A DNA stretch of 64,000 bases from an uncultured Bacteroidales bacterium (lineage in GTDB: Bacteria; Bacteroidota; Bacteroidia; Bacteroidales; FEN-979): contig CAIVAT010000145.1 of NCBI GenBank assembly GCA_903903985.1, forward strand, positions 1 to 64,000, read 5' to 3'. Shown here one piece after another: positions 7,425 through 46,593 of the stretch. Position 1 is the stretch's first letter. The number at the start of each line of letters is the position of its first letter. The position numbers and the translations under genes were made by a program. A model generated the notes under the pieces. That model did no database searches, was not told where the DNA came from, and worked only from the letters and a program-made list of their open reading frames with translations.

Positions 7425-7427
7425 ATA

Positions 7428-7528
7428 CCTCATCCCCCCGGCCGCCTTCTCCTCAAGGAGAAGGGGGAGAAAGTCCCTCCCTTGTTGAGGAGGGATTTAG
7501 CGTGGGGTTTAAAAATTATGGGTGAGGT
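7428..7528. repeat. G/C-rich palindromic repeat, intergenic
   Basis: It contains CTTCTCCTCAAGGAGAAG and then CCCTCCCTTGTTGAGGAGGG, two nested hairpins, with GTGGGGTTTAAAA after them. The second half closely matches the element at 12984-13070 (AAGTCCCCCCTTGTTGGGGA and a following GGTTGGGTTTAAAA). Placed between convergent-free plus-strand genes, it could act as a terminator or mRNA stabiliser. Confidence 0.6.
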
Positions 7529-7569
7529 AACCAGCACTATAACATTATACTTATCAAAAACATACTCTT

Positions 7570-8793: not shown

Positions 8794-8828
8794 TTGCCGG
8801 CACTGATCGCTCCACGTCCTTAAATTTT

Positions 8829-10082: not shown

Positions 10083-10112
10083 CCATTCCCTGAATTTTTC
10101 CAAAACAGAAAA

Positions 10113-11852
10113 ATGAACCGACTCCAATCACTCCTGATTTTCTTCCTGGTATTTTCTTCAGCCGTTTCGAAAACGGAAGCCTGCACCAACCTTATTATTA
10201 CCAAAGGAGCCAGTAAAGATGGTTCTGTAATGATCACCTATGCCGCCGATTCGCATACCCGGTATGGAGCCGTCGCCTTTTATCCGGCCGCCGATCATAA
10301 ACCCGGAGATGCATGTGAGCTATACCATTATGAAAGTGGAAAGTTCCTGGGGACCATTCCGGAGGCTGCCCATACCTATTCGGTGATCCAGTTCATGAAT
10401 GAAAACCAGGTGGCCATAGGTGAAACGACCTTTGGTGGCCTCGATTCACTGGCCAGCCAGCCAGGGGCTTTTCTGGACTATGGTTCGCTGATGAAAATCG
10501 GGTTGCAGCGTTCAAAAACCGCCAGGGAGATGATCAGGGTCATCACTGAACTTGTCGGACAATATGGCTATGCTTCAGGTGGAGAATCCTTTTCTATTTC
10601 TGACGCAAACGAGGCCTGGATCATGGAGATTATCGGAAAAGGAAAATATGAATTAGGTGCGGTTTGGGTCGCCCGGCTGATTCCTGATGGTTATATTTGC
10701 GGACATGCAAACCAGGCCAGGATTACCACTTTCCCTTTTCAGAAATCCAATGACTGGAATGACCCTGAACAAACTGTGTATCATTCCCCGGATGTGATCA
10801 GCTTTGCAAAGACCCATGGCTTTTATAAGGGAAATGACCTGGATTTCAGTTTTTCTGATGTTTACAATCCCTTGAATTTTGGCAGTGCCCGTTTCTGCGA
10901 TGCACGTGTTTGGTCGTTTTTCAGGAAAGTGAGCAAGGCAGTACGTGAAAACGAAGATTATACACGGTATGCAATGGGACAATTTTCTTATCAATCACGC
11001 ATGATGAATGGTAGCCCGAACCAGAATGGTTATATTTCCAATCGGCTGCCCTTGTGGGTGAAACCCGATTCACCGGTAGAAATCCGGCAGGTAATGGCGG
11101 CCATGCGCGATCACTATGAGGATACGCCTCTCGATATGCGTTACGATCTTGGAGCCGGCCCTTTTCATCTGCCATACCGCTGGCGACCGATGGAATTTAC
11201 GGTCGACAGTGTCATGTACCTGAACGAAAGGGCCATAGCCACACAGCAAACCGGTTACAGTTTTATTGCTCAATCGAGAAGCTGGATGGCCGATCCGATC
11301 GGGGGTATTTATTGGTTTGGTGTTGATGACGCCGATGGTTGTGTATATGTCCCATTGTATTGCGGAATAAGGAAAATCCCTCAAAGTTATGCCACCGGCA
11401 ACGGCTCAATGATCGCATGGTCTGAGAATTCGGCTTTCTGGACATTCAACCAGGTGAATAACTGGTCGTACACCCGTTATGATCTTATTCATCCCGAAGT
11501 GGAAAAATACCAGGCTGAACTGGAGAAGCGCCTGCTCGTGGAAACATCGATCGTTGATGCCAGGGCGACGCTGCTTTTCAGGGAAAATCCTTTATCAGGG
11601 ATTGATTATATCACTGATTATTCAGCATATACCGGAAACCTGCTCGTAACCAAATGGAAGGACTTTTACCATTACCTTTTTATGAAATTTATCGACGGCA
11701 ATGTGAAGCAGGCGAATGGCTTCCAGTTACTCGACAATGGATATGGCAAAGGCGTGCCAAAGAAACCCTCGCAACCGGGTTATGGTCCGGAATGGGAGCG
11801 AAGGATGGTTGATGGGACAGGTGACCGGTTCAAAGTCCCTGTAGCCAAATAA
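10113..11852 (+). CDS. Peptidase family C69 dipeptidase (Ntn hydrolase), secreted
   Basis: This 579-residue protein has a signal peptide whose cleavage would expose Cys24 (SKTEA|CTNLIITKGASKDGS). In family C69 the new N-terminal cysteine is the nucleophile, and CTN(L/F)I is its signature. These enzymes hydrolyse dipeptides in the periplasm or outside the cell. The rest follows the Ntn fold, with GGESFSISDANEAWIMEI near residues 151-168. The gene starts 30 bases after arcA and could supply amino acids, including arginine, to that pathway; this link is inferred from position only. Confidence 0.87.
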   Translation: MNRLQSLLIFFLVFSSAVSKTEACTNLIITKGASKDGSVMITYAADSHTRYGAVAFYPAADHKPGDACELYHYESGKFLGTIPEAAHTYSVIQFMNENQVAIGETTFGGLDSLASQPGAFLDYGSLMKIGLQRSKTAREMIRVITELVGQYGYASGGESFSISDANEAWIMEIIGKGKYELGAVWVARLIPDGYICGHANQARITTFPFQKSNDWNDPEQTVYHSPDVISFAKTHGFYKGNDLDFSFSDVYNPLNFGSARFCDARVWSFFRKVSKAVRENEDYTRYAMGQFSYQSRMMNGSPNQNGYISNRLPLWVKPDSPVEIRQVMAAMRDHYEDTPLDMRYDLGAGPFHLPYRWRPMEFTVDSVMYLNERAIATQQTGYSFIAQSRSWMADPIGGIYWFGVDDADGCVYVPLYCGIRKIPQSYATGNGSMIAWSENSAFWTFNQVNNWSYTRYDLIHPEVEKYQAELEKRLLVETSIVDARATLLFRENPLSGIDYITDYSAYTGNLLVTKWKDFYHYLFMKFIDGNVKQANGFQLLDNGYGKGVPKKPSQPGYGPEWERRMVDGTGDRFKVPVAK

Positions 11853-29966: not shown

Positions 29967-32900
29967 ATGTTCCATCGATTTCTCCGCCGTATCATTTTGA
30001 CTTCCATGCTGATGGCATCGATGCAAGGGATATGGGCGCAGCAGTGTCTTGATACGTATCCTGTCATTACCGGTCCTGATGTGGTAGGAGTAAACGTTAC
30101 TACTTCGGTTTCATATACCACCCCGTCTATCCCTGGGCATACTTACACATGGGTTGTAAAACAATTGCCCGGTTTGAATGTCGTTGGAGGCTCATCATCA
30201 AACATACTCAGCCAGACCTGGGCGACACCCGGCGATTACCGTATTGAACTTAGTGAAGGCATTGCAGGCAGCAGCTGCACAGAGGTACCTGCCTCTCCGA
30301 TGGTTGTTTTAGCAAAGCCCATGCTGGCTGCCTATTTTTATTACGAATTCGATGCCGCTCATGGTTGTTTCTATAATGAAGTTACCTTTACAGCTACCGG
30401 CAACGGCGTGTTCCCCCCGGCAGATCCATCAATTTCATATACCTGGTACTGGGGTGAATACATCAATCCCTCCACCCCGGTAACATGGAAGACAACAAAT
30501 ATAACTTCAATCGGTCCCAATAGCTCTATAGTAAAAATTCTCTTTCCATCCACCTCTGGAAAGACATACGCAACCAAGCTGGTTGTTTCAAAAACAATTT
30601 CAGGAAGAGCCTGGAGCGATGAAATTACCGATTTTGTTTTTGTTGATCCAGATAAGTATAAACCGGTCGCCGTCGTGGCTAATCCGGCCAACCCGAGCTG
30701 TCTTTACCAACCCTACAACTTCAGTGCTTTTGGAAGTCTGCCAACATCCATGGCCACCAGTGAAACGTTCCTTTATGTGGATTGGGATTTTGGCGATGGC
30801 ACCACCCAGCATTTTGCCAAAACTGGAAGTACACCGCCTCCCCTTACAACAACACATACTTATGCTACACCAGGCCTGAGGACTGTTACCCTTACGCTGA
30901 CAAATACCATTCATTGTTCTGTTACAAAGACTTTTACAGTCGATGTTCCCTCGACCCTTCCTGTTGCCCTGTACACGCACACCTCACCCATTTGTCTGAG
31001 CAACCCGGTGACTTTCACCAACAACTCCACGGTCCCTGCCGGACTGAATATCGTGAAATGGGAATGGACTTTTGGGGATGGAACTCCACCGGTTGTTATC
31101 AGTGCCCCGAGTTCTCCGAATACTGTTCACGTCTTTCCCGGCATGGGCCCCTATATTGCACAGTTAAAAGTGACCACCCTCAGCGGGTGCCAGGATTCCA
31201 TCAGGCAAAATATAAAAATTGACCCCTCTCCTTTGTCTGATTTCACTTTCCTTACGACATGCCTTGGCGATGAAGTCCCTTTCACTGACCTTTCACTCCC
31301 AAACGATGGACCGCCTATTTCAGCCTGGAGCTGGAATTTCGGTGATCCTACCTCTCCCGACAACACCTCTACCGAACGTCATCCCCACCACGTTTTCACC
31401 AGTACCGGGTCCTTCATTGTTACTTTGATTACTACCAACACCAGCGGTTGCGTGGGCAGTACCAAAACAAGAACGGTAACCGTTTACCCGAAGCCACCCG
31501 TTCAATTTACGCAGCATGTTGGTTCTCAGAACAATGAAGTATATTTCCAGGTGGATACATCGGTTACCCCGATCGGGATGATCGGCAACATGTTGCTCTG
31601 GAATTTTGGTGATGGCACTTTTGGTAATGGCGGGCTTACCCAATCGCATATTTATGCAGCCGGAGGAACCTATATTGTAACGCTGACTGTTACAGATACT
31701 ATTGGCTGTTCCAACTCATATTCCGATGCAAATGTTGTTGTTCCGAATCTGCCGGAAGCTCGCTTTTCCAGCAACTCACCCGTTTGTTTTGGCCAGGAAT
31801 TGTGCGTTAAAGATCTTTCGGTTGTCCCGACCCCTCCGTTTGGGTATATCACCACATGGATATGGAACTGGGGAGATATCAGCCCAAATGATACGGTGTT
31901 TTTTCCAAACAACCCAAATCTCTGCCATCTCTATGCCACGGCGGACACCTTTGCGATTACACTTAAAGTCATTGATGATAAAGGATATATAGACAATGTA
32001 ATAACAAATATTATTGTCCTTCCCAACCCAAAGGCTAATTTTTTCTATTCAACAGCATGCCAGGACAAGGTCATCCAGTTTACGGATATGTCCAGCCCCA
32101 ATGGCAGTGGGAACATCATATCATGGATCTGGAATTTTGCGGATCCCGGAAGCGCTATCAACAATAACTCCACGCTTACTGATCCTACTCACATATTTTC
32201 TCACGGAGATTCTACTTACATGGTGCGGTTAATTGTGAAGAACTTCAACAATTGCATTGACACGATTGTAAAACCGGTGTATGTCTTTCCGGCACCACCT
32301 GTTGCTTTTACCCACGATACCGCCTGTTTAAACGAATTGGTACATTTCCTTGCCGATACAGCGGTAACCCATCTTGATTCCATTGTGCACTGGTCGTGGG
32401 ATTTTGGAGACGGAACACCACCCGTAACTGATCCCGGGAGTACTGCCCATCCTTATTCCGTTGCGGGAATCCACCTCGTCACCCTCACGGTGATTGATCA
32501 TCATGGTTGTTCCAATACCGTGCAGGATTCGATCATGATCAACCCGCTCCCGGTATCCAATTTTTCGTGGGGAACACCTGTATGCCAGGGCACACAGATA
32601 CAGTTCACTGATCATTCTTTTGTCCCACCGGGCTTTGCAGGTTATATTGCCAAATGGCAATGGGATTTCGGGGATGGGACGTCACAAACGATCATCTTTC
32701 CGAATCCCCAGAATGTTTCCCATACCTATGCAGGTACCGGGCCGAATTACACGGTACGCCTTACAGTGTGGACAAACGACAGTTGTACTGCATTTATTAA
32801 AAAAACACTCATCCTGATCCCTGCTCCGGTTGCCAATTTTGAATTCCCGGCCACACGGTGTGAGGACCAGCAGGTACAGTTTACCGACATCTCCCAGCCA

Positions 32901-35756
32901 AACGGGGGCGGGGATCTTGTTCAATGGTCATGGAATTTTGGCGATCCGCTTTCCGGATCAAACAATACATCCCTTTTACCGAGCCCGGTGCATATATTTT
33001 CAACAGCCGGGAACGATACGGTTAGATTGATTGTTGCCAATGCCAATGGCTGCCGCGATACCACTTACAAAGTCGTTTCGATCAGCGCTGCTCCGTTTGC
33101 ATTTTTTGCCGCTGACACAGCCTGCGTTGCCAGTCTTACCTATTTCAGCGATTCATCAACGACTCCAACCCCCGGTACGATCACTTCATGGGCATGGAGT
33201 TTTGGAGATCCTGCCAGTGGCACCAACAATACATCCACGCTTCAGAATCCTGTTCATACCTTCAATTCCCCAGGAACCTATCCGGTATCACTGCATGTTA
33301 CAAACAGCCACCAGTGCCCGAAAGATACGGTCATCCAGGTTGTTGTGAACCCGAAACCGACCGCGATGTTCCAGTACAGTTCGGTATGCGTGAATGATTC
33401 AACCCAGTTTACCGATCTCACCATTTCTCCGGGCAGCCAGATACGATCATGGCTTTGGGATTTTGGCTGCGGCAACGCCACCTGTATTTCCACAAAACAA
33501 AATCCAAAATACCTGTATGCAAATCCGGGGAATTACAGTGTGAAGCTTGTAGTCACCAATCAATCCGGGTGTTCCGATTCGGTTACCATCCAGGTGGTTG
33601 CACGGTCTATCCCCCGGGCCAAATTCAGTTACCTGAGTTTCTTTTGTCCGGCAGGGAAGGTGAATTTCCAGGATTTGTCAACCGCAACTGCTTCATCCAT
33701 TGCCCAACGCGAGTGGATCTTTGAACCGGGATCTACTTCCAGCCTGCCAAATCCATCTTACATCTATCCGGTGACGACTGCCATGACCTCCTATCCTGTT
33801 ACCCTCATCGTGACAGATACGTATGGTTGCCGCGACACGGTCCTGGACAGCCTGGTGTATGTGAAACCGGGATTCACTTTTTCATTCAGGAACGACAGCG
33901 TTTGCCAGGGATATACTACTCATTTTGATACCATCCATGTAACCCCCGGGGATCATCTTTATAATGTTTCCTGGAATTTTGGCGATCCTTCGTCCGTTCC
34001 AAACAACACTTCAACCCTTATGAGCCCATCCCATCAGTTTACCGGACCAGGCGTATATGTTGTTAAATTGAAAGCGATCAATTCCGATAATTGTGTTGAC
34101 AGTGTTTACCGTGAAGTGCCGATATACGAAGCGCCGAAGCCCAATTATGGATTTGTTTCAAATCCATGTGACAGCGTAGTGTATTTCAGCGATTTGACTG
34201 CAAATACCGGCAACGGGTCAATCGTGAGCTGGAAATGGATCTGGGGCGATGGCGGCGATACGACGATTCTTGCGCCGGGTCCTGGCAACAAATCGCATTT
34301 ATATGTTAACGCTGGAGTATACCAGGTAACCCTGATTATTACGAACATCAACGGGTGCGTCGACAGCATCACACAAAGCGTGCAGCGTTTCCCCTGTATA
34401 AAAGCAGGATTTACTTACAAGGATACATTATGCGCCAGGTATAAAATTGCCTTCGCTGACAGTTCCCTGCCGGTATCACGCATCAATCAATGGCATTGGA
34501 CATGGGGCGACGGTACAGATACAACCTATACCGTGCATAATTCACCCATCATGCACACATTTGCCAGCGGAGGAACCTTCAATGTGAACCTGGAGGTTCA
34601 GGCCCTGTTAAATGGAACAACCATTTCGGAGAATATGATGAGTGCTGTAGTGATTCATCCGACGCCGATGCCCTATTTCTCCAACCCCCCGGTTTGCCTG
34701 AAACAGGTGACTTTATTCACAGATACTTCGAAAACATACGGTGAACAGACCGTGAATTGGAACTGGACCTTCAGCCAGTTCCCAACCGATACCTCCACGT
34801 TCAGGAATCCAACCCATTTGTACGATTCATCAGGCACCTATAATGTCAAACTGATCGTGATGAATAAGTATGGCTGCAAAGATTCATTGATCAAACCGAC
34901 AAGGGTTTATGGCTTGCCTGTTGCAGGCTTTGAAAACACTGCGGCATGTGCCGGAGAACCAACCTTGTTTTTCGACAGATCAATCAAAGCGGATACGGCC
35001 GTCGGTTTCTGGCGCTGGACTTTCGGAGACCCGGCTACAATTAAAGACACATCGCAACTTAAGGATCCGACCTACCGGTATCTCAGTGCTGGGGATTTTT
35101 CTGTCAGGATGATCGTAAAGGACAATTTTGGTTGTATTGATACTCTTGATTCAACGGTAAAGGTCAACATCACACCGATGAGTTCATTTACCATTGTCGA
35201 TGCTTATAATGGAAGGCCGGGGCAGGTGAAACTCAATAACATCTCAACGGGTGCTACCTTGTATAACTGGGACTTCGGCAACGGCAAAACCTCCGAGGAA
35301 ACCTCTCCGGTTGTGACCTATGAGTATAGTCTTGACAGCCTGGGCAGACAAAATTATATCATCAAACTCATTTCGCTGAACCAGTATGATTGTTCCGACA
35401 CCACTTTTTACAGATATAGTTTATTATTCAAAGGATTGTATGTTCCAAATGCTTTTGCGCCATCCAACAATAATTTAGGGGTCAGGCTCTTCAAGCCTAC
35501 CGGGATAAACCTGAAGCAGTACCATGTGACGGTATTTGATATGTGGGGGCATTTGATGTGGGAATCTACCAAACTTGATGAATTCGGTACACCTACTGAA
35601 GGCTGGGATGGAACCTTTGAAGGGGCCACGATGCCGCAAGGTAATTACATGTGGAGGATCAGTGCCTTGTTTATTGACGGGGCTCCCTGGGAGGGTTCAG
35701 ATATAGGTTCGGGGGCTTCAGCAAAAACAATGGGGACAGTCTCTTTAATCCAATAA
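29967..35756 (+). CDS. Giant PKD-repeat surface protein with T9SS type B (gliding-motility-like) C-terminal domain
   Basis: The protein has 1929 residues. After a signal peptide (about 1-25, IWAQ) come roughly 18 PKD-type repeats of 85-100 residues, each with a W-x-(W/F)-x-F-G-D motif (for example WDFGDGT, WSWNFGDP) and an ending (T/V)xx(Y/F)...V(T/K)L.V.....GC. Cysteines recur at the ends of most repeats, which would allow disulphides. The last 110 residues (about 1815-1929: GLYVPNAFAPSNNN, then VTVFDMWGHLMWES and EGWDGTF) are the CHU_C / T9SS type B sorting domain. Such proteins are exported by the type IX system and act as adhesins or gliding filaments, as SprB does. A PorP/SprF gene follows 18 bases later, the usual partner. 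Confidence 0.9.
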   Translation: MFHRFLRRIILTSMLMASMQGIWAQQCLDTYPVITGPDVVGVNVTTSVSYTTPSIPGHTYTWVVKQLPGLNVVGGSSSNILSQTWATPGDYRIELSEGIAGSSCTEVPASPMVVLAKPMLAAYFYYEFDAAHGCFYNEVTFTATGNGVFPPADPSISYTWYWGEYINPSTPVTWKTTNITSIGPNSSIVKILFPSTSGKTYATKLVVSKTISGRAWSDEITDFVFVDPDKYKPVAVVANPANPSCLYQPYNFSAFGSLPTSMATSETFLYVDWDFGDGTTQHFAKTGSTPPPLTTTHTYATPGLRTVTLTLTNTIHCSVTKTFTVDVPSTLPVALYTHTSPICLSNPVTFTNNSTVPAGLNIVKWEWTFGDGTPPVVISAPSSPNTVHVFPGMGPYIAQLKVTTLSGCQDSIRQNIKIDPSPLSDFTFLTTCLGDEVPFTDLSLPNDGPPISAWSWNFGDPTSPDNTSTERHPHHVFTSTGSFIVTLITTNTSGCVGSTKTRTVTVYPKPPVQFTQHVGSQNNEVYFQVDTSVTPIGMIGNMLLWNFGDGTFGNGGLTQSHIYAAGGTYIVTLTVTDTIGCSNSYSDANVVVPNLPEARFSSNSPVCFGQELCVKDLSVVPTPPFGYITTWIWNWGDISPNDTVFFPNNPNLCHLYATADTFAITLKVIDDKGYIDNVITNIIVLPNPKANFFYSTACQDKVIQFTDMSSPNGSGNIISWIWNFADPGSAINNNSTLTDPTHIFSHGDSTYMVRLIVKNFNNCIDTIVKPVYVFPAPPVAFTHDTACLNELVHFLADTAVTHLDSIVHWSWDFGDGTPPVTDPGSTAHPYSVAGIHLVTLTVIDHHGCSNTVQDSIMINPLPVSNFSWGTPVCQGTQIQFTDHSFVPPGFAGYIAKWQWDFGDGTSQTIIFPNPQNVSHTYAGTGPNYTVRLTVWTNDSCTAFIKKTLILIPAPVANFEFPATRCEDQQVQFTDISQPNGGGDLVQWSWNFGDPLSGSNNTSLLPSPVHIFSTAGNDTVRLIVANANGCRDTTYKVVSISAAPFAFFAADTACVASLTYFSDSSTTPTPGTITSWAWSFGDPASGTNNTSTLQNPVHTFNSPGTYPVSLHVTNSHQCPKDTVIQVVVNPKPTAMFQYSSVCVNDSTQFTDLTISPGSQIRSWLWDFGCGNATCISTKQNPKYLYANPGNYSVKLVVTNQSGCSDSVTIQVVARSIPRAKFSYLSFFCPAGKVNFQDLSTATASSIAQREWIFEPGSTSSLPNPSYIYPVTTAMTSYPVTLIVTDTYGCRDTVLDSLVYVKPGFTFSFRNDSVCQGYTTHFDTIHVTPGDHLYNVSWNFGDPSSVPNNTSTLMSPSHQFTGPGVYVVKLKAINSDNCVDSVYREVPIYEAPKPNYGFVSNPCDSVVYFSDLTANTGNGSIVSWKWIWGDGGDTTILAPGPGNKSHLYVNAGVYQVTLIITNINGCVDSITQSVQRFPCIKAGFTYKDTLCARYKIAFADSSLPVSRINQWHWTWGDGTDTTYTVHNSPIMHTFASGGTFNVNLEVQALLNGTTISENMMSAVVIHPTPMPYFSNPPVCLKQVTLFTDTSKTYGEQTVNWNWTFSQFPTDTSTFRNPTHLYDSSGTYNVKLIVMNKYGCKDSLIKPTRVYGLPVAGFENTAACAGEPTLFFDRSIKADTAVGFWRWTFGDPATIKDTSQLKDPTYRYLSAGDFSVRMIVKDNFGCIDTLDSTVKVNITPMSSFTIVDAYNGRPGQVKLNNISTGATLYNWDFGNGKTSEETSPVVTYEYSLDSLGRQNYIIKLISLNQYDCSDTTFYRYSLLFKGLYVPNAFAPSNNNLGVRLFKPTGINLKQYHVTVFDMWGHLMWESTKLDEFGTPTEGWDGTFEGATMPQGNYMWRISALFIDGAPWEGSDIGSGASAKTMGTVSLIQ

Positions 35757-35773: not shown

Positions 35774-36874
35774 ATGAAAAACCGATATATATACCCGATT
35801 CTTTTGGTTCTGAGTTTGCTTGGGATTGTTGCGAACGTGCGTAGTCAGGACATGAATTACACGCAGTATTTCAGTACGCCGGTCTATTATAATCCTGCAT
35901 ATACCGGCATCAACTCAGGCATCAGGGCACGATTCCTCTATCGCAACCAATGGCCGAGTCTGCCAGTTTCATATAAGTCCTATTATTTTGCCGCTGACCT
36001 GGGCGACAGGAGTCTCCCGGGTTCCGGCGGCATCGGGCTCATGATCAACCAGGATACGCCGGGTGCCGGGCTGATCAATAATTTCGGGGCTGCCCTGACA
36101 ATTGGCGTGCGCATCCCCATCACAAGTTATATGATCAGCCAGATAGGGATCAAAGCCGGTATCATGCAGCGCAAGGTAAATTGGGATGATTTTGTATTTG
36201 CCGACCAGTTGAGTGCCCAGTATGGAAATATTTACCAAACAGCCTTCATTCCATCAGATGCCAGCAAAAGGGTTGTTCCGGATTTTGGAGCAGGCGGTGT
36301 GTTGCAATTCGTTAATCCTGATGGAAATATCAGTGGCAACATCGGCTTTGCTGTTGACCATATTTTCAGACCGGATGTAAGCTTCCTGAATACCGGCTCT
36401 TCCCCATATCCGCGCAAATGGGTTGGCCAGTTTGATATGATTTTTGTTGTCGGACAGGGTGGATCTTCCATGGTTACCCGTGGCAGTGATGATCCTTTGA
36501 AGATAAATATCGGAGGTATTTATCAGAATCAGGCAAATCTGAATTCGTTACAGGTAGGGCTCAATCTACTCAAGTTTAATATCTATCTGGGCGGTTGGTT
36601 TAAAACAACCATGACCGGGATTGTCAACAGCTCCCTTGCTTTGGTTGCAGGCTACAAGTATACTTTTTATGATGATATGAACATCAAGTTCATGTATAGT
36701 TACGACCTGCAGATTTCGGGGGCACTCCAGGGAACCGGAGGTGCACACGAAATTACGTTGATCCTTGAATTCGACAAGATTTCCCTCTTTGGCAGTGGCG
36801 GCGGCGGATTCGTTCCAGGTGGCAGCGGACGCAGGGGCGGTGGCGGTCCAATGGAAAGCCCTACGTTCTATTAA
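35774..36874 (+). CDS. PorP/SprF-family type IX secretion-associated outer membrane protein
   Basis: This 366-residue protein has a signal peptide (about 1-24, VRSQ) followed by the family start DMNYTQYFSTPVYYNPAYTGI and RFLYRNQWPSLPVSYKSYYFAAD, and a 14-strand-like barrel. The C-terminus carries a Gly-rich extension (GSGGGGFVPGGSGRRGGGG). In Flavobacterium SprF is needed for secretion of the type B cargo SprB, and PorP/SprF genes commonly sit beside a type B substrate gene. Here the gene directly follows the PKD giant, so the two are very likely a cargo-partner pair in one transcript. Confidence 0.9.
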   Translation: MKNRYIYPILLVLSLLGIVANVRSQDMNYTQYFSTPVYYNPAYTGINSGIRARFLYRNQWPSLPVSYKSYYFAADLGDRSLPGSGGIGLMINQDTPGAGLINNFGAALTIGVRIPITSYMISQIGIKAGIMQRKVNWDDFVFADQLSAQYGNIYQTAFIPSDASKRVVPDFGAGGVLQFVNPDGNISGNIGFAVDHIFRPDVSFLNTGSSPYPRKWVGQFDMIFVVGQGGSSMVTRGSDDPLKINIGGIYQNQANLNSLQVGLNLLKFNIYLGGWFKTTMTGIVNSSLALVAGYKYTFYDDMNIKFMYSYDLQISGALQGTGGAHEITLILEFDKISLFGSGGGGFVPGGSGRRGGGGPMESPTFY

Positions 36875-36897: not shown

Positions 36898-38163
36898 TTA
36901 CATATTCGCAATAATTTCGGTGCCGAATTCAGAACATTTTAATTTCGTGGCACCTTCCATCAACCGTTCAAAATCGTATGTTACCCGTTTGTTCCTGATA
37001 GCGCCTTCCAACCCTTTTACGATCATGTTTGCAGCCTCGGTCCAGCCCATGTATTCCAGCATCATAACCCCGGAAAGGATGACTGAGCCTGGGTTTACCT
37101 GGTCTTTCCCGGCATATTTCGGGGCCGTTCCATGGGTAGCCTCAAAAACGGCATGCCCGGTAACATAATTAATATTTGCTCCCGGAGCAATTCCAATACC
37201 TCCTACGATTGCTGCCAGTGCATCTGAGATATAGTCGCCATTCAAATTCAGGGTTGCAATGACAGAATATTCCGCGGGCCGCGTCAGGATCTGCTGCAGG
37301 AATGCATCTGCAATGACATCCTTGATAATGATTTTCCCGTTTGAAAGGGCTGAATTCTGAGCAGCCTCTGCGGCAACATCACCATCATTGGCTTTGATTT
37401 TATCATAGGTCATCCAGGTAAAGACCTTGTCGCCAAACTCCCGCTCAGCGAGTTCGTATCCCCACTGTTTGAATTGTCCTTCCGTGAATTTCATGATATT
37501 CCCCTTGTGTACGATGGTAACCGAAGGTTTTTTATGGCTGATGGCATAGAGTATCGCAGCCCTGACCAGCCGTTCGGTGCCCTCTTTCGAAACGGGTTTT
37601 ATCCCGATGGAGGAGCTTTCCGGGAAACGGATCTTTTTAACCCCCATCTCCCCGATAAGGAACCTGATCACCTTCTCCACTTCCGGGGTTCCCTGCATCC
37701 ATTCGATCCCGGCATAAATATCTTCCGAGTTTTCACGGAAAATCACCATATCGGTGGTCTCAGGATGTTTAACCGGGGATGGAACCCCTGTGAAATACCG
37801 TACCGGACGTACACAAGTGTAGAGGTCGAGGATCTGGCGCAAGGCGACATTGAGTGACCTGATTCCACCGCCCACCGGGGTCGTCAAAGGCCCTTTGATG
37901 GCAACCAGGTACTCCCTGATCACATCCAGGGTTTCCTGAGGCAGCCATTCACCTGTTTGTTTAAAGGCTTTTTCACCTGCAAGCACTTCCCTCCAGGCAA
38001 TTTTCCGGGTACCGGCATAGGCCTTCTCAACAGCTGCATCCAAAACCCGCACACTGGCACTCCAGATATCCGGCCCCGTTCCATCCCCTTCGATAAATGG
38101 GATGACAGGATTGTTCGGGACGGTAAGTTTCCCATTCATCAGGGTTATTTTTTCTCCGTTCAT
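36898..38163 (-). CDS. icd: NADP-dependent isocitrate dehydrogenase
   Basis: This 421-residue enzyme is of the E. coli Icd type. Substrate-binding residues lie in [26 protein letters not shown] (about residues 98-123), whose serine corresponds to the phosphorylatable Ser113 of E. coli. REN.EDIY.GIEW follows near 143-155. NADP preference is indicated by [17 protein letters not shown] near 339-355, with the Lys-Tyr that contacts the 2'-phosphate. It oxidises isocitrate to 2-oxoglutarate in the TCA cycle. It is encoded on the same strand as, and downstream of, the synthetase-GNAT fusion, with 106 bases between them; acn and gltA lie on the other side. Confidence 0.95.
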
Positions 38164-38269: not shown

Positions 38270-41200
38270 TTATTTTAGCTTTTTGATCAGCGCCCCCCAT
38301 TGCTTATCAACCTCAAAGAAATGTTTAAGATAATAATTCCCAAAGAGGAAGTGGGCTTTGATCACTTCGATGCCCCTGGCTGCCATGCTTGCAAAGAAAT
38401 TTTCAATCATGCCTGAGGCGATGCCTTTCCCCTGAAGGGAGGAAGTAACCACGATGCCATCGAGCAGGATGTTATGGTCTTCAATATAGCGGAAGGTGAT
38501 ACCGCCGACTATTTTATCATTTTCATCCGTCAAAACATACTGATGGTCGCTATCTGTGATCTCTTTGGGGTAATTTTCCCGGAAGAACAGTTGATATAAC
38601 TGGCCGATTTCACGCGCAGCTACCGGTTCTCTCAGAATGTAACGTATTCCCGATTTATCCTGGAATGAAAAGCGAACAACCACATGTTCCTGCTGATTTT
38701 CTCCCACCTTCATAAAATCAAACCCCTGTTCACCCTGAAGGCGCGGGAAAACCATCCGGCTGAAAACGTTTTTATCTTCGGGATTGCTTAATCCCGATTG
38801 AAGATCTGACAGTTCGGTTAACTGGATCGCCAGTCCATCGGGCTGTCCGGCCATCCGTTTTAAAAGCCTGTCGAAAGCAGATTGCAGTTCGTCATGGGCA
38901 TCTGAAAAATAGGTGTGACGGTACAGGAAATAACGCACGAGTTCAGCATACTGATGTAATTTGTAAAGTTCAAGTAACTCGATGCAGGTTTGTTCCCTGG
39001 CAACAAATGTCGTAAGCGGGTTCATTTTATACCAGTCCTGGTATTGATCGATCGCACTGAACAGTGCGACAGGCATATAATACCGGTTGATGGAGCTTTC
39101 AAGGTACTGGTCAAGATGATCCCTGAATTCAGTAGCGTCAAAACACATGATTGATTTTGATCTCAGATCATGCCTGAGTTTCATAAGAAATTGCCTGGCT
39201 TCTGTTTTGCCAAGTGCCTCGATACATGCATCAAATATCCAGGTCACTTCAAGTTGATTCTGACACCAGGGGTAGATGGAAGCGGTTTTACAGTAGTAAT
39301 CCTGTAGCATGGGTTCAACCAGGGACAGTGCATTTTTATATGGAGACCATCCGGCCAGTGATAAGATTACCGCACTTTCACGGAAATCCATCTCGGGTAT
39401 AGCGACATTGGATGGAGAAATAGCACCCGGAACGATCTGGTTGCCACTATGATGCCATGCCTTGAAGATCACTGCAAAGGATTTGATGAATATTTTTTTC
39501 CATGCATTGCCCCGTACAAAACCCGAAGAACGGTGAATCTCAGATAACTCACGGATTTTGTCCCATGCGGTCAACCCTCCGATATACTGCGTGGTCAAAA
39601 CTCCAAGGTTTGGCCTGCTGCTGCCAAGCATGGGGGCTACTGCCGGTCCGTATGGGAATCCCGCCAGCGATGCCAGCCAGTAAAATGTTTCCGGCCGGGG
39701 TCTGAAATCAGGGTTTTCACTCATCACCATGTGCAGGTCAAAGTGCTTCCCGTCAATGGTATTGATAGAGAGCCGGTAGTGTTTAAATTCTTTAAATGCC
39801 AGCAACCGTAAAATCCAGATTCCTTTGTCGGGAACTATATCAAGGTCAAAATCACGTTCATTAAAAGTAAGGATGATACTCTCCTTCAGAAAAGTTGTAG
39901 ATTGGAAAATGTTTGCAACACGCTGTTTTTCAGTATCGGTAATACCGTGTTCAAAAACAAGTTTTGATTTCCACTTCGAAATACCATGGCGGATGGACTC
40001 CTTTTCAACTTTTTTCTCAAAAACTTCAGCCAGGGAATAGAAATAGGTCTCAGCTTTTTTTGAAAGAAACAGATCCTGTTTATGGAGGATCCACCGTGAA
40101 AGCTCAGCCCTTACCGGAACATAATATTCCAGGTGCAGTACCGCGAAATTGTAAAGCATTCCAAGTACATCCCCGAATGCGTTCTGGTGCTTTTTCGACG
40201 CAGGCCAGTTCAGATTTGTCCTATACCAGTATAGCCTTTGTTTAAGGGCATCAAGACGGTGTTTCCCGAAATTGCTAGATGCAATTTCCCTGATCGAAGT
40301 TTCATTGAGGAAGGAGAGACCGGATTCGATGAACGAAGGCATGTTTTGAATGTCTTCCGGATTCGGAGCTTTCAAAAGGATCAACCGGTAAGCCATGCAC
40401 CGGATCTCTTCTTCCGGGTGATAGGCAAGTGCTTCCAGGCGATACCTGATGACCACCGCAAGTCGTGGTTCTGCCTGGATCAGTATTTTCCCAAGCTCCT
40501 CGGTAGCTTTATATGCTTCAGCAAGTCCGCGGAAAAAAACACTAAAAAGCAGGTAGTTCACTTCGATCAGTTGCTGATCACGAATTGATTTGATAACCGG
40601 GAAATTCTTTACATCATATTGCTTAAATCCAGGGAGATACGCGCTGGCCGAGATAAAATGCATGGGGAGATCCCAACCCTCCTTGACAGGACAGAAATTG
40701 ATGATCGCCGGGTTTCCAATCCAGATCTTTGGCTGACGAGTAATCATTCCAATATCGATATTGCTGGATTCAATATGGTATTTTAAATGGCCGATCTGAA
40801 TCCACTTGCCTTTCATTTTCCTGATGTAAAGTGTAGATCCGTCGCGCCGGTTGATCAACCGGTGGCGATCGTACCGAATATCAGTTTCCAGGATTCCAAG
40901 ATCACGGTAAAACCATTTTGGGATGGTGACCGTAAGATCACCCGTATCGATTTTTACAAACGTACTTTGATATAATGATTCAATTGCTTCTTTGAAATTC
41001 GCTTCGATTGCTTTACGGTTAAAAGAGTCTTTTGGCGTGAGTTCTCCTTTTTCACTGCTGAATTCCCGGTCAAGAATTGTAAAATTAATTACCCGCTCAT
41101 AAGGTGCCACTCCCGTATTTGCCGCCATGACGATTTGGTGAAAGTATTCAGCCTCATTATCCCCACCAAGTGAATCAAAAATGGCGTCGGATTTGTCAGG

Positions 41201-42859
41201 AACAATCAGCAGTACATTGTAGGGGCGGTTGTCGCCAACCAGGAAAACACTTTTAATTCCCGGTACTTTGTAAAATTTCTTTTCAATAACCTGGGGGGCC
41301 ACCGTCTGACCGCGGTTATTTTTATAGATGTCTTTCACCCGGTCAATGATCTGGTAATAGCCATCCCTGGAAATTTTAAAGACATCGCCGGTTGAAAGCC
41401 ACAGGTCTGCTTCTTCAGAAACAGGATACGGGATCCTGTCACCAGGCCCCGCTGCCTCAAGGTACCGTCCAATGTAATGTCCACTGAGTTCAAGTTCAGA
41501 CCCGCTTTTAAGCCTGGTCCGAACGCCCGGCAATGGGATTCCAACACTGAATTCCTTGTATTTTCCAGGCGGGGTCATGGTAATCCCCCCGGTGGCTTCT
41601 GTCATGCCAAAACCACTGTTCAGGCAAATGCCGTACTGATTGAAAAATTTAAAAACTTCAGGGTCAAGATAGCCGGCAGCCGATAATCCCCAGTGAAGGT
41701 TGATTCCAACCACATCCCGTACAGCCTGTTCACGAAGTTCGGGATTGTCAACATTGCTGATCTTTTCCAGGCATCGTTCAAAAAGCTCCTGCCACCGGAG
41801 CGGGATGCTGATAAAGCCGGATGGGTTCATTTTCGGAAACAGGGAAAGCAGAGTTTCAGAGGATGTATTCCCGGCGAAAATATACGTCCCGTTCCAGAAG
41901 ATGGCACCCGTCATTTCGAGGTACCGGCCGAAAGTATGGAAGAGTGGCAGATAGCACAGGAATACTTCATCACCAACCCGGGGTAACGCTGCCGCCCGGG
42001 CAAACCTTTTCGAAACGATGTTGTATATGGAGAAAGAAACACCTTTCGGAAGGCCGGTGCTGCCTGATGTGAACATGGTCGTAGCTACCTCGTTGTTGGC
42101 TTTCCTGGGCTGGCGCCCAAGAATGGTATCCATGTCCCAGTGCGATATTTTTTTACATTCCTCAACCAGGTAAGGAATGTGGCGGGTTTTAGAGGTGACA
42201 GGCTGCAAGGAAAAAATCGTGAATTTGATCTCCGCCTTTTCATGGATCTTTTGAAGTACCTGCAACCGCTCCTCCGTGTCAGCCAGGGCAATGGTAATCT
42301 TTAATTCGTTAAAAATGGGCAGAAGGACGTCGATTTTGAAATGCGGACTGAGCGGGGTATCGTAAATGCCGAACATCAGGCAAGCGAGGTCGGTACAGGC
42401 CCCCTCCAGGCAATTCTCGGTATACACTGCAACCCTGGGAGAAACGGGATCGGTTTGATAAAACACACTGGCTATTTCACGCAGGTGGCGGAAGATTTGT
42501 TCATAGGTCCAGTCCAATGGCATGGAAGAGGTCATGTCTTTGAACAATATATGGTTCGGGTGTTCAGCAACCCGTTGTTCCATCATATCGCGGAGATCGT
42601 AATTCGTATGCTGGATGATGCGGAAAACGATTTCAGCCCACCTTTTCCGGTGATCATCCGTCTCCATGGCCAATAGAAAAACCGATTTTTTGGTAACGTC
42701 CAGGAAATCGAACCAGAAGGAATGTTGAAATAACTTCTCCTGATGTCTGGTAAAAATACGCTCTGATTCCTCCACAATGCCGATGGAGGTAGAATGGACA
42801 TTCACCCCGGAAACATGCATGTTTTTCCATTGTTCCAGCAGCGATTCTAATTCCAACAT
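38270..42859 (-). CDS. Acyl-CoA synthetase / kinase-like / GNAT acetyltransferase fusion protein
   Basis: This single 1529-residue protein has an AMP-forming acyl-CoA synthetase domain at about 90-640: TSGSTGLPKG at 264-273, GFGMTEATGG at 416-425, STGDVF at 489-494, DRVKDIYKNNRGQ at 506-518 and a TPKDSFNRK segment at 608-616 for the C-terminal lysine. Residues 640-950 are mostly helical with no family I recognise. Residues about 960-1165 look like a degenerate kinase fold: a hinge-like GVLTTQYIGGLT, then IVPGAISPSNVAI (1142-1154) where a kinase would have HGDxxxxN, so the catalytic Asp is Ala. Residues about 1395-1529 are a GNAT domain with acetyl-CoA loop SLQGKGIASGMI (1474-1485). It lies between icd and acn-gltA. 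Role unknown; protein acylation or lipid activation are guesses. Confidence 0.8.
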   Translation of the reverse strand: MLELESLLEQWKNMHVSGVNVHSTSIGIVEESERIFTRHQEKLFQHSFWFDFLDVTKKSVFLLAMETDDHRKRWAEIVFRIIQHTNYDLRDMMEQRVAEHPNHILFKDMTSSMPLDWTYEQIFRHLREIASVFYQTDPVSPRVAVYTENCLEGACTDLACLMFGIYDTPLSPHFKIDVLLPIFNELKITIALADTEERLQVLQKIHEKAEIKFTIFSLQPVTSKTRHIPYLVEECKKISHWDMDTILGRQPRKANNEVATTMFTSGSTGLPKGVSFSIYNIVSKRFARAAALPRVGDEVFLCYLPLFHTFGRYLEMTGAIFWNGTYIFAGNTSSETLLSLFPKMNPSGFISIPLRWQELFERCLEKISNVDNPELREQAVRDVVGINLHWGLSAAGYLDPEVFKFFNQYGICLNSGFGMTEATGGITMTPPGKYKEFSVGIPLPGVRTRLKSGSELELSGHYIGRYLEAAGPGDRIPYPVSEEADLWLSTGDVFKISRDGYYQIIDRVKDIYKNNRGQTVAPQVIEKKFYKVPGIKSVFLVGDNRPYNVLLIVPDKSDAIFDSLGGDNEAEYFHQIVMAANTGVAPYERVINFTILDREFSSEKGELTPKDSFNRKAIEANFKEAIESLYQSTFVKIDTGDLTVTIPKWFYRDLGILETDIRYDRHRLINRRDGSTLYIRKMKGKWIQIGHLKYHIESSNIDIGMITRQPKIWIGNPAIINFCPVKEGWDLPMHFISASAYLPGFKQYDVKNFPVIKSIRDQQLIEVNYLLFSVFFRGLAEAYKATEELGKILIQAEPRLAVVIRYRLEALAYHPEEEIRCMAYRLILLKAPNPEDIQNMPSFIESGLSFLNETSIREIASSNFGKHRLDALKQRLYWYRTNLNWPASKKHQNAFGDVLGMLYNFAVLHLEYYVPVRAELSRWILHKQDLFLSKKAETYFYSLAEVFEKKVEKESIRHGISKWKSKLVFEHGITDTEKQRVANIFQSTTFLKESIILTFNERDFDLDIVPDKGIWILRLLAFKEFKHYRLSINTIDGKHFDLHMVMSENPDFRPRPETFYWLASLAGFPYGPAVAPMLGSSRPNLGVLTTQYIGGLTAWDKIRELSEIHRSSGFVRGNAWKKIFIKSFAVIFKAWHHSGNQIVPGAISPSNVAIPEMDFRESAVILSLAGWSPYKNALSLVEPMLQDYYCKTASIYPWCQNQLEVTWIFDACIEALGKTEARQFLMKLRHDLRSKSIMCFDATEFRDHLDQYLESSINRYYMPVALFSAIDQYQDWYKMNPLTTFVAREQTCIELLELYKLHQYAELVRYFLYRHTYFSDAHDELQSAFDRLLKRMAGQPDGLAIQLTELSDLQSGLSNPEDKNVFSRMVFPRLQGEQGFDFMKVGENQQEHVVVRFSFQDKSGIRYILREPVAAREIGQLYQLFFRENYPKEITDSDHQYVLTDENDKIVGGITFRYIEDHNILLDGIVVTSSLQGKGIASGMIENFFASMAARGIEVIKAHFLFGNYYLKHFFEVDKQWGALIKKLK

Positions 42860-42976
42860 GTGATAAATGGTTTGAGGATGAAAATTTTTATAAATTTATG
42901 ACGTTATTTTTAATAAAAACTATTACATTTAAACTTCTAAATATATCATTTAGTTTACATATCAAATAATTTATTT

Positions 42977-45235
42977 ATGTTTCTGAATACTAAGTTAATA
43001 CAAGACACATACGAAAAGATTTCAAAAGGGGTTGTACACGCAAAACTGTTGCTTGATAAACCATTGACGCTGACTGAGAAGATACTATATGGTCATTTAT
43101 TCGATTTGAATCCGGCCGTTCCGCTCCATCGTGGAGTGGATTATGTCAATTTCTCACCCGACCGGGTGGCCATGCAGGATGCCACTGCTCAAATGGCGCT
43201 GCTGCAATTCATGACTGCCGGCCGGGATGTCACTGCGGTTCCTTCGACGGTGCATTGCGATCATCTGATCCAGGCACAACTCGGGGTTAAAACCGACCTG
43301 GCGACAGCCATGGTGCAAAACAAGGAGGTTTATGATTTTCTTGAAACAGTGTCGGCCAAGTACGGTATCGGGTTTTGGAAACCCGGCGCAGGGATCATCC
43401 ACCAGGTCATTTTTGAAAATTATGCATTCCCCGGCGGAATGATGATCGGAACAGATTCACATACCCCAAATGCCGGAGGACTGGGCATGGTTGCCATCGG
43501 GGTTGGCGGGGCCGATGCCGTCGATGTGATGTCGGGAATGCCTCTTGAGCTGAAAATGCCAAAAATACTGGGAATCGAACTCACAGGGGAATTGAGTGGA
43601 TGGGCTTCAGCCAAGGATGTTATCCTTAAATTAGCCGGGATCCTTACTGTGAAAGGCGGAACTGGCTATATTGTTGAATATTTTGGCGAAGGAGCTGAGA
43701 CGCTCTCCTGTACCGGTAAAGGAACGATCTGCAACATGGGCGCCGAGATCGGAGCCACCTGTTCGTTATTTTCGTATGACCCAAAGATGAAGGCTTACCT
43801 GGTTTCGACCGGACGAACGGAAGTGGCGGCACTTGCAGATAACTATGCAGGTTACCTGGCTCCGGATGCCGAGGTACGGGCAAACCCCGAATTGTACTAC
43901 GACCAGTATATCAGGTTGAACCTGTCGGAGGTCGAACCATACATCAACGGGCCGTTCTCTCCTGATGTGGCGCACCCGATCTCTGAATTTAAGGCGTTTG
44001 TTCAGGCAAATAATTATCCGGAAACACTGGAAGTCGGGCTGATCGGTTCATGCACGAACTCCTCTTATGAAGATATCTCACGTGCCGCTTCAGTGGCCAA
44101 GCAGGCCAGCGAGAAAAATTTAAAAGTGAAATCGGAGTTTGTCGTTACACCCGGATCGGAGCAGATACGTTATACTTGCGAACGCGATGGTTTACTGGAG
44201 GTGTTCAACAACATCGGCGGTGTGATCATGGCCAATGCCTGTGGCCCCTGCATCGGGCAATGGTCGCGTAAAATGGATAATCCCGAACGCAGGAACTCCA
44301 TTTTAAACTCGTTCAACCGGAACTTCGCTAAAAGGAATGATGGCAATGCAGGAACACACAGTTTTATTGCTTCTCCCGAAATCGTAACCGCCCTGACCCT
44401 GGCAGGCAGCCTTACTTTTAACCCCCTTCAGGATTCTCTCATCAATGAATCAGGCCTGCAGGTGAAACTTGATGAACCTCATGGAGAGGAACTTCCGTTG
44501 AACGGTTTTGAAGTGAAGGATCCGGGTTACCTTGCCCCGCCTGCGAATGCAGCATCATTGACCGTGCGCGTAAGCCCGGATTCCGAAAGGCTGCAACTCC
44601 TTGAACCTTTTACGCCCTGGGATGGAAAAGACCTCCAGGGGATGCGGCTGCTGATCAAGGCAAAGGGGAAATGTACTACCGATCATATTTCGATGGCCGG
44701 CCCCTGGCTGAAATTTCGCGGGCACCTCGATAACATCTCCAATAACCTGCTCATGGGGGCAGTCAACTTTTTCAATGACAAAACCAATGCAGTTAAAAAG
44801 CCTGAAACCGGTGATTACGGGGAGGTTTCAAAAACAGCACGCTATTATAAGGCCAAAGGGGTACCGACGATCATTGTGGGTGATGAGAACTACGGTGAAG
44901 GATCCTCCCGCGAACATGCCGCCATGGAACCACGCCACCTTGGCGTTCGGGCCGTACTGGTTAAATCATTTGCCCGGATACACGAAACCAACCTGAAAAA
45001 GCAGGGCATGCTGGCGCTCACCTTTGCCAGCCCGGAAGACTACAACAAAATCAGGGAAGACGATACATTCGACCTTTCAGGGCTGGAAAGTTTTGCCCCC
45101 GGGAAACCCCTGTCCCTTACAATCCGGCATGCTGACAATACAGTTGAAAAGATTTTATTGACACATAGTTACAGTGACCTGCAAATACACTGGTTCAAAG
45201 CAGGCAGCGCCCTTAATTACATGAAAACCCTTTAA
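42977..45235 (+). CDS. acnA: Aconitate hydratase
   Basis: This 752-residue aconitase carries the three cysteine ligands of the [4Fe-4S] cluster: Cys359 in [10 protein letters not shown] and Cys422/Cys425 in [11 protein letters not shown]. The swivel domain follows (about 565-752) with [14 protein letters not shown], which holds catalytic residues. It isomerises citrate to isocitrate. The citrate synthase gene begins 11 bases after its stop. The 116-base AT-rich gap upstream separates it from the divergent fusion gene and must hold both promoters, though neither matches the consensus cleanly. The symbol follows the family; the length and motifs resemble mitochondrial-type aconitase. Confidence 0.94.
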
Positions 45236-45246
45236 AACAAAAACCT

Positions 45247-46593
45247 ATGATAATTGATGATTTCCTTCAGGATCTGGCTAAACTGACCGTAGAATCCTGT
45301 ACCATAGAAGAAAGCTTATTCAAACAATTCGATGTGAAACGCGGCTTGCGGAATGCCGATCATACCGGTGTGCTTGTCGGGCTAACACGTGTTGGCAGTG
45401 TGGTAGGCTATGAAAAGATAGATGGAAAGCTTGAAGCCATTGATGGCAAGCTGATCTATCGTGGAATCGATATCCGGGACCTGGTACATGGCTGCCAGGA
45501 AGCAAAACGCCCCGGATTTGATGAAACCGTTTTCCTGCTGCTTTTTGGCAAGCTGCCATTAAAGGAAGAACTTGATAAGTTCTCCGAAGGACTTGCCGTG
45601 TTGCGTTCATTGCCTGAAAATTTCAACCGCGACATGATCCTGACCATGAAAGGCAAGGATATCATGAACATGCTGGCACGATCAATCCTGGCACTCTATA
45701 CCCTTGACGAAAAAGCTGACGACACCTCCATTGAGAACATCCTGAGGCAATCGATCAGCCTCATTGCGAAGATCTCCACCATCGCAGTCTATTCCTATCA
45801 TTCCATGCGCCACCTGATCTATTATGATACGCTTACAGTAAGGTACCCTGATAAAAAATTGAGTACGGCTGCAAATTTCCTGTACATGCTCAAGGGCAAT
45901 GATTACACGGCACTCGAGGCAGAACTGCTTGATCTTTCGCTGGTGCTGCATGCAGAACACAGCGGCGGAAACAACTCCACTTTTACAACACGCGTGGTTA
46001 GTTCAAGCGGTACAGATACCTATTCAGCCATCGTGGCAGCCATTGGTTCGCTCAAAGGACCATTGCATGGCGGGGCCAACCTGCAGGTGATCGAAATGAT
46101 GGAAAACATCAAGGCAAACGTGAAAAACTGGGCCAACGATGATGAGGTTGCCGAATACCTGCGTAAAATTACCAGGAAAGAGGTCCACGATAAATCGGGA
46201 AAAATATACGGATTCGGCCATGCCGTTTATACTGTTTCTGATCCAAGGGCCATCCTTCTAAAAGAAAAAGCCCGCTTGCTGTCCATCGAAAAAGGCAGGG
46301 AGGATGAAATGGCGCTCTATGAAGCCATCGAACGGATCGGTCCGGAAATATTCTATGAATTCAAAGGAACACAGGATAAACTTATTTCTCCCAATGTCGA
46401 TTTTTATTCCGGATTTGTATATGAATGCCTGAAGATCCCTAAAGAACTTTATACCCCGTTGTTCGCCATCTCCCGCATCAGCGGATGGTGCGCACACCGG
46501 CTGGAAGAGATGATCAGCGGACGCAGGATCATTCGCCCGGCCTATAAAACGGTGGAACCCCCGAGGAACTATGTTCCATTGGAAGACAGGTAG
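45247..46593 (+). CDS. gltA: Citrate synthase
   Basis: This 448-residue citrate synthase has a long N-terminal extension before the conserved core. Catalytic regions are HAEHSGGNNSTFTTRVVSS near residues 237-255, GPLHGGANLQVIEMM near 272-286 and FGHAVYTVSDPRA near 322-334, with the His and Asp used in condensation of acetyl-CoA and oxaloacetate. It forms an operon with acnA (11-base gap). It could accept propionyl-CoA as 2-methylcitrate synthase, but coupling to acnA and proximity of icd favour citrate synthase. The stop is followed immediately by a word-repeat tract. Confidence 0.93.
   Translation: MIIDDFLQDLAKLTVESCTIEESLFKQFDVKRGLRNADHTGVLVGLTRVGSVVGYEKIDGKLEAIDGKLIYRGIDIRDLVHGCQEAKRPGFDETVFLLLFGKLPLKEELDKFSEGLAVLRSLPENFNRDMILTMKGKDIMNMLARSILALYTLDEKADDTSIENILRQSISLIAKISTIAVYSYHSMRHLIYYDTLTVRYPDKKLSTAANFLYMLKGNDYTALEAELLDLSLVLHAEHSGGNNSTFTTRVVSSSGTDTYSAIVAAIGSLKGPLHGGANLQVIEMMENIKANVKNWANDDEVAEYLRKITRKEVHDKSGKIYGFGHAVYTVSDPRAILLKEKARLLSIEKGREDEMALYEAIERIGPEIFYEFKGTQDKLISPNVDFYSGFVYECLKIPKELYTPLFAISRISGWCAHRLEEMISGRRIIRPAYKTVEPPRNYVPLEDR

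Follow-up and report, generated by a model that had tools for sequence, protein, structure and literature searches.

An apparently undescribed bacterial protein joining an AMP-forming synthetase-type domain, a kinase-like middle region and a GNAT domain, encoded in some lineages beside citrate-side TCA genes

Results

A three-part gene between icd and acn

The window, that is, the whole stretch of 64,000 nucleotides analysed here, from an uncultured Bacteroidales bacterium, contains on its minus strand an ORF that starts with ATG and encodes 1529 residues without internal stop (translation of 38270-42859). The original prediction placed this gene between icd and a divergent acn-gltA pair, and both the coordinates and the NCBIfam names of the three neighbours, all over cut-off, agree with that location. 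The features of the locus are as follows.

36898-38163, minus strand: icd, NADP-dependent isocitrate dehydrogenase, downstream of the fusion gene on the same strand after a gap of 106 bp
38270-42859, minus strand: fusion gene, 1529 aa (ORF and translation; full-length orthologues)
38273-38647, minus strand: GNAT domain, residues 1405-1529 (PF00583; Foldseek)
38405-38440, minus strand: CoA-pyrophosphate loop of the GNAT domain, residues 1474-1485, Q/R-x-x-G-x-G/A/S (conservation in 71 orthologues)
39110-39907, minus strand: kinase-like domain, residues about 985-1250, borders approximate (hhalign, shuffles, residue counts)
39350-39436, minus strand: catalytic-loop-like and DFG-like segment, residues 1142-1170 (residue counts in the hhalign register)
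39935-40942, minus strand: beta-rich, then helical stretch, residues 640-975, of no known family (AlphaFold secondary structure, low confidence in part)
40964-42604, minus strand: ANL (AMP-forming acyl-CoA synthetase) domain, residues 86-632 (PF00501, PF23562; conservation of A3, A5, A7 and A8)
41012-41047, minus strand: altered A10 motif, residues 605-616, GELTPKDSFNRK (71 of 71 orthologues; unfused relatives; alignment to 6oz1)
42860-42976, no strand: divergent intergenic region of 117 bp between the fusion gene and acn, likely the promoter region (predicted)
42977-45235, plus strand: acn, aconitate hydratase (mitochondrial type), divergent, 117 bp away
45247-46593, plus strand: gltA, citrate synthase (PRK14032), after acn

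In the 1529-aa protein, Pfam recognises AMP-binding (PF00501) at residues 94-455 (E 3e-44), AMP-binding_C_3 (PF23562) at residues 516-632 (E 3e-11) and, over its cut-off, Acetyltransf_1 (PF00583) at residues 1432-1515 (E 1e-8), and gives no match for residues 640-1420. No NDP-forming domain was found by Pfam at E values up to 1, and no carrier-protein domain by Pfam. ORF, translation and Pfam therefore agree on what had been proposed: a single protein in which a GNAT domain is fused to a synthetase domain of the AMP-forming, not the ADP-forming, kind. The two strings quoted at the time are also present, IVPGAISPSN at residues 1142-1151 and SLQGKGIASGMI at residues 1474-1485.

Distribution and selection

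We assembled 71 full-length orthologues (1513-1632 aa), all of which carry synthetase, middle region and GNAT domain in one chain. Since full-length copies occur in many genomes, a chance ORF or an assembly join is excluded. The orthologues belong to the window's order and to a single further class of the same phylum; where the records of close relatives carry a name, it is that of uncultured Bacteroidales or Bacteroidetes. Between the two main lineages, homology of the middle regions is clear (hhalign, 100%).

The fusion is present in 17 of 19 genomes of the window's genus and, with 61 related genomes searched, in 29 of 37 genomes of its family, where one copy is fragmented and one is split over two contigs. 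Across the order, the middle region was found in 30 of 393 genomes. A class-wide sample of 395 genomes gave the fusion once, as the window's own copy. A phylum-wide sample, also of 395 genomes, gave it 21 times including the window, the other 20 copies belonging to families f196, f212 and f214. The class that holds these three families (that of genome G1049) carries the fusion in 16 of 149 genomes, which adds family f235. No relative was seen in a scan of viral contigs. The alignment behind the class-wide, phylum-wide and viral searches (A1), used also in the Pfam and PDB searches of the middle region described below, contained one neighbouring ORF, from locus L063, at 17% identity. Shorter copies, among those met in non-exhaustive searches, correspond to contig ends or interrupted genes.

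Some individual loci have features of their own. At L063, a 1547-aa ORF (6833-11473, minus strand) without a Pfam match at 1e-8 lies directly upstream of the fusion gene. Genome G120 contains the middle region twice, on separate contigs (C89, with loci L041 and L066, and C231), and its gene may be duplicated. At L182 (genome G036), the fusion gene and acn are both interrupted, which may reflect decay or an assembly error.

Because synonymous sites are near saturation, dN/dS values are rough: in the five pairs where they could be calculated, they are 0.02-0.11 outside the N-terminal 85 residues and 0.24-0.30 within them. The ANL domain gives 0.048-0.062 (four pairs) and the GNAT domain 0.020-0.036 (two pairs). 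For the kinase-like part, the same saturation makes the ratio incalculable; its dN (0.083-0.202) is similar to that of the ANL domain (0.093-0.195) in the same five pairs.

A displaced lysine in the synthetase domain

The synthetase had been described as having intact signature motifs, which proves correct for A3, A5, A7 and A8 but not for A10. Thr264, Ser265, Gly266 and Lys272 of A3, the FGMTE of A5 (Phe417-Glu421), the TGD of A7 (Thr490-Asp492), and Asp506, Arg507 and Lys509 of A8 are each kept in 71 of 71 orthologues. The A10 segment has the consensus E-x-T-x-K-x-[S/T]-x-x-R, with Glu606, Thr608, Lys610 and Arg615 again in all 71, but at position 612, where the canonical lysine belongs, 54 orthologues have Ser and 17 have Thr. 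The invariant Lys610 lies two residues upstream of this position.

No gap is needed in this register to align four further proteins encoded in the genome, each of which has Lys at 612, or the carboxylic acid reductase 6oz1, which keeps its A10 lysine. Ten unfused FadD-type proteins were also aligned: two from the same genome and eight plasmid-borne synthetases chosen among the matches listed (25 of 284 records). Nine of them could be read at A10 (L277 has no readable segment; two of the seven readable plasmid-borne proteins come from one species), and they have Lys at 612 in nine of nine cases and at 610 in none. Together with two further own-genome proteins, the normal A10 lysine is thus found in 11 of 11 readable unfused relatives. 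Just past the window, at 69.4-71.6 kb of its contig (C145 of genome G000), two close-set AMP-binding_C_3 synthetases are encoded, both with the normal lysine.

The A10 lysine is described as one of five invariant positions in 374 class I adenylate-forming sequences (PMC6122825). Since it is missing from its place here, the ANL domain of the fusion is a homologue of this class and not a canonical member. Among ligase models, the domain scores best against the long-chain and FadD11-type ones, all under their curated cut-offs.

The GNAT domain

The CoA-binding loop of the GNAT domain is conserved across the family, whereas a lack of conserved acetyl-CoA contacts would have spoken against the earlier proposal. 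Within the loop, Gly1479 is kept in 68 of 71 orthologues, position 1481 is Gly, Ala or Ser in 71 of 71, and position 1476 is Gln or Arg in 59. Residue 1467 is Asp or Glu in 68 orthologues and residue 1509 is Tyr or Phe in all 71; from GNATs in general, we take these two residues to be the base and the acid. A Foldseek search with a low-confidence AlphaFold model of residues 630-1529 (mean pLDDT 62.7) returned, among 50 of 813 matches, GNATs alone and no kinase, the best E value being 4e-3. Small-amine acetyltransferases come first in this list, which also contains Gcn5, RimI and Ard1, none of them with a significant E value.

The middle region

Part of the stretch between the synthetase and GNAT domains had been likened, from a motif, to a kinase in which the catalytic Asp is replaced. 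Pfam, applied to the middle region of 43 sequences, including the neighbouring ORF, found no family in more than two, and hmmsearch of a middle-region profile against PDB sequences gave a single match at chance level. A kinase signal appears in profile-profile comparison. With residues 975-1340 of 66 orthologues against 21 Ser/Thr kinases from relatives, hhalign gives a probability of 25.6% (E 7e-4, score 35.1, 130 columns) and aligns, in order, beta-3, the hinge (YIGGLTAW), the catalytic loop (IVPGAISPSN) and the DFG strand (AVILSL). None of 400 shuffled profiles reaches this score (the best of 200 column shuffles scores 23.6, the best of 200 block shuffles 31.3), and against the same kinases the reversed profile scores 11.9 and other regions of the protein 10.9-17.3. 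Half-size kinase profiles give 11-26%, and a profile from all 71 sequences gives 21.7%. The signal drops, however, when the lineages are split, to 1.5% (17 sequences) and 3.1% (49 sequences) against the 21 Ser/Thr kinases. Comparison with APH (29 sequences, 0.3%) and ABC1 (12 sequences, 0.7%) gives no signal. Among themselves, kinase families align at 43.7-94.9%.

Structural models add no kinase match and, at their low confidence, speak neither for nor against a kinase fold. The alignments behind them are shallow, since they hold 12 sequences for residues 630-1529 and 11 for residues 975-1345. The second model has a mean pLDDT of 59.5, mostly below 50 in its N-terminal half, and Foldseek retrieved nothing meaningful with it and no kinase (50 of 84 matches). 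The middle region resolves to no established domain.

Active kinases are marked by the HRD Asp, the DFG Asp and the beta-3 Lys. In the hhalign register, none of these is kept: the HRD position (1146) has Asp in only 6 of the 71 orthologues, the DFG position (1167) is Ser or Thr in all 71, and the beta-3 position (1043) is never Lys and mostly His. Asn1151 and Asp1158 are found in 68 and 64 of the 71, respectively. The idea of a degenerate kinase thus has modest support, in the hinge and catalytic-loop match that shuffling does not reproduce; if the fold is real, the loss of the catalytic residues would make it a pseudokinase.

Linkage to TCA genes

We looked for icd, acn and the window's gltA at the loci of the order, and in addition for a second type of gltA at those of the other class. 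In the window's family (f1), represented by 28 loci with flanks of up to 1.5 kb, icd adjoins the fusion in 24, acn in 23 and both in 21. At least one of the two adjoins it in 26 of the 28 loci, and neither in L006 and L015; the misses include contig ends. After acn, gltA follows in L086, L087, L088 and L090, and was not seen within the stretches covered of L089 and L091. Part of this linkage reflects shared ancestry, because the wider synteny (a PorP-family gene, genes past gltA) is also kept in several relatives of the window's family. That side of the locus includes, at 29967-35756 on the plus strand, an ORF of 1929 residues for which the matches in relatives overlap one another many times, as in a repeat protein. 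It directly precedes the PorP/SprF-family type IX secretion gene (35774-36874), and both are found beside icd in several relatives.

Families f196 and f214 of the other class have a citrate synthase gene on the strand of the fusion, at most 3 kb upstream of it, in 13 of 17 loci. In 10 of these the two genes are not separated by any ORF; of the four loci without the citrate synthase gene, one is at a contig edge. This citrate synthase is of the PRK09569 type and about 25% identical to the window's gltA (PRK14032). The fusion has therefore been observed in two separate placements beside citrate-side genes, which is suggestive. Family f212 has icd about 5 kb from the fusion in one of three loci.

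TCA linkage is thus neither absent nor general: it holds in the window's family and in f196/f214, but does not extend to the rest of the order, where none of 23 loci (15 of which have flanks of 1.5 kb or more on either side) has icd, acn or the window-type gltA next to the fusion, nor to f235 (none of five loci). Because it is absent from those 23 loci, gene linkage alone is not enough to assign the protein a role in the TCA cycle. In genus g4, of the same family as the window, all four genomes have acn and none has the fusion; three have acn and icd back to back, 98 bp apart, and the fourth has acn at a contig edge.

We also considered a strict dependence of the fusion on aconitase and rejected it. 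In the order, 20 of 30 fusion genomes have this aconitase, against 167 of 363 others, a weak association that ignores relatedness; the fusion is thus kept in genomes without it. Twenty-nine hand-picked neighbouring ORFs outside the two linked groups, one of them from L137, scanned with Pfam, revealed no shared theme and no shared biosynthetic neighbours. A SpoIIE-type phosphatase domain occurs near the fusion at two loci of this set.

Discussion

Possible modes of action

The question is what a protein of this composition could do. The reading that we tentatively prefer, from its domains and their conservation, is an acyltransferase acting on amines (perhaps protein lysines), either self-supplied or gated by a metabolite, with acyl activation and transfer in one polypeptide; we regard it as possible rather than probable. 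The ANL domain would bind ATP and a carboxylic acid and form an acyl-adenylate or acyl-CoA, with Lys610 standing in for the usual A10 lysine. The GNAT domain would transfer the acyl group so made to an amine, most likely on protein lysines, or might instead be controlled by the ANL domain and draw acetyl from the general CoA pool. The middle, with its kinase-like and helical parts, is the likely regulatory or docking module and may be a scaffold for nucleotide sensing or substrate docking. Because of the gene linkage, the TCA enzymes Icd, Acn and citrate synthase would be the first candidate targets. This last step is the weakest. Linkage is missing in the rest of the order and in f235, and genus g4 keeps acn without the fusion. 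As precedents, a GNAT is described to acetylate Icd and lower its activity (PMC5428333), and another to act physically on an AMP-forming synthetase (PMC11255334).

Against the preferred reading, by analogy, loss of the A10 lysine impairs adenylation in known ANL enzymes (PMC11255334, PMC6122825). The invariance of the nucleotide-binding residues and of Lys610 suggests that the domain remains chemically active, or binds nucleotide at the least, and feeds or gates the GNAT domain. A KGT-type A10 segment is a feature of some fungal NRPS-like reductases, for which our literature search found no paper; if so, enzymes with a displaced lysine can be active, and the signature would not be unique to the fusion family.

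Alternatively, the ANL domain could be catalytically dead, sensing acyl-CoA, an acyl acid or adenine nucleotides and gating the GNAT domain accordingly. The A10 lysine out of place in 71 of 71 orthologues would then parallel the type I/II GNATs, in which the NDP-forming synthetase domain is described as inactive, lacking its catalytic His, and is thought to sense acetyl-CoA (PMC8556138). However, that domain belongs to the NDP-forming type, for which Pfam gave no match here, and the other nucleotide-contact residues are invariant along with Lys610, more than a sensor seems to need. Complete conservation of A3, A5, A7 and A8 together with Lys610 and Arg615 would be hard to explain in a dead domain, and we consider this alternative rather unlikely.

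A product other than a modified protein may also be envisaged: the ANL domain would give an acyl-CoA with which the GNAT domain acylates a free amine, yielding an N-acylated small molecule such as an N-acyl amino acid or polyamine. The preference of the ANL domain for long-chain and FadD11-type ligase models, all below curated cut-offs, is consistent with this, as are the small-amine acetyltransferases that head the Foldseek matches, although protein acetyltransferases are among them too and no E value is significant. On the other hand, the neighbouring ORFs scanned share no biosynthetic theme, Pfam finds no carrier-protein domain, and it is hard to see what such a pathway would need the roughly 770 residues of the middle for, so that we judge a small-molecule product unlikely. 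That the synthetase is a working enzyme and the fused GNAT its built-in off switch, as if the AcuA-AcsA pair were joined in one chain, seems quite improbable: AcuA is described to acetylate AcsA at the A10 lysine and to form a complex with it (PMC11255334), but this target is out of place in 71 of 71 orthologues and Lys610 would have to serve instead.

Returning to the acyltransferase reading, a bolder form of it can be put forward, which we think doubtful. The fusion would define a new class of protein acyltransferase, which activates its own acid in cis and does not draw on the cellular acyl-CoA pool. Its relocated A10 lysine would perhaps be immune to Pat-type inactivation, its pseudokinase would act as a nucleotide-sensing gate, and the whole would tune citrate-side TCA flux.

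Comparison with known systems

The original prediction had recognised no known protein in this architecture, and our search of the open-licence full-text literature for a fusion of an AMP-forming synthetase with a GNAT found no title or abstract that describes one; the fusion is apparently an undescribed large bacterial protein. The nearest relatives found for its ANL domain are long-chain acyl-CoA synthetases of the FadD11/FadD15 type and the A domains of carboxylic acid reductases, with which it shares a C-terminal domain of the AMP-binding_C_3 kind. Those checked are far shorter than the fusion and, unlike it, keep the A10 lysine (11 of 11 readable; 6oz1).

Fusions of a synthetase-type domain with a GNAT are an established bacterial tie between protein acylation and metabolism, and those described in one review use an inactive NDP-forming domain (PMC8556138). 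Like these type I/II Pat GNATs, the present protein combines an acyl-CoA synthetase-type domain and a GNAT in one large chain, with a possible tie to central carbon metabolism. It differs from them, as they are described, in that its synthetase domain is AMP-forming (PF00501) and is followed by a kinase-like and helical middle; where they have lost the catalytic His (PMC8556138), it has a displaced A10 lysine instead. In the AcuA-AcsA system of Bacillus subtilis, a GNAT also works with an AMP-forming synthetase, but as described these are two proteins, and the A10 lysine that is acetylated in AcsA is out of place in the fusion (PMC11255334). The mycobacterial GNAT Rv2170 is a precedent for the control of isocitrate dehydrogenase (PMC5428333); it is placed among the type IV, GNAT-only enzymes (PMC6456759) and, unlike the fusion, has neither a synthetase nor a kinase-like part. 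By their descriptions, none of the type I/II GNATs, AcuA-AcsA and the Icd-acetylating mycobacterial GNAT shares the architecture of the fusion.

Since its gene adjoins citric acid cycle genes in many members of two distant bacterial groups, the fusion may modify proteins or small molecules in concert with central metabolism. With an AMP-forming domain at its base, occurrence in two classes of a single phylum and linkage to TCA genes in two lineages, the family would offer a new acylation system. The lysine that has changed throughout the family is one described as invariant, which would provide a natural case for the study of ANL chemistry with a displaced lysine.
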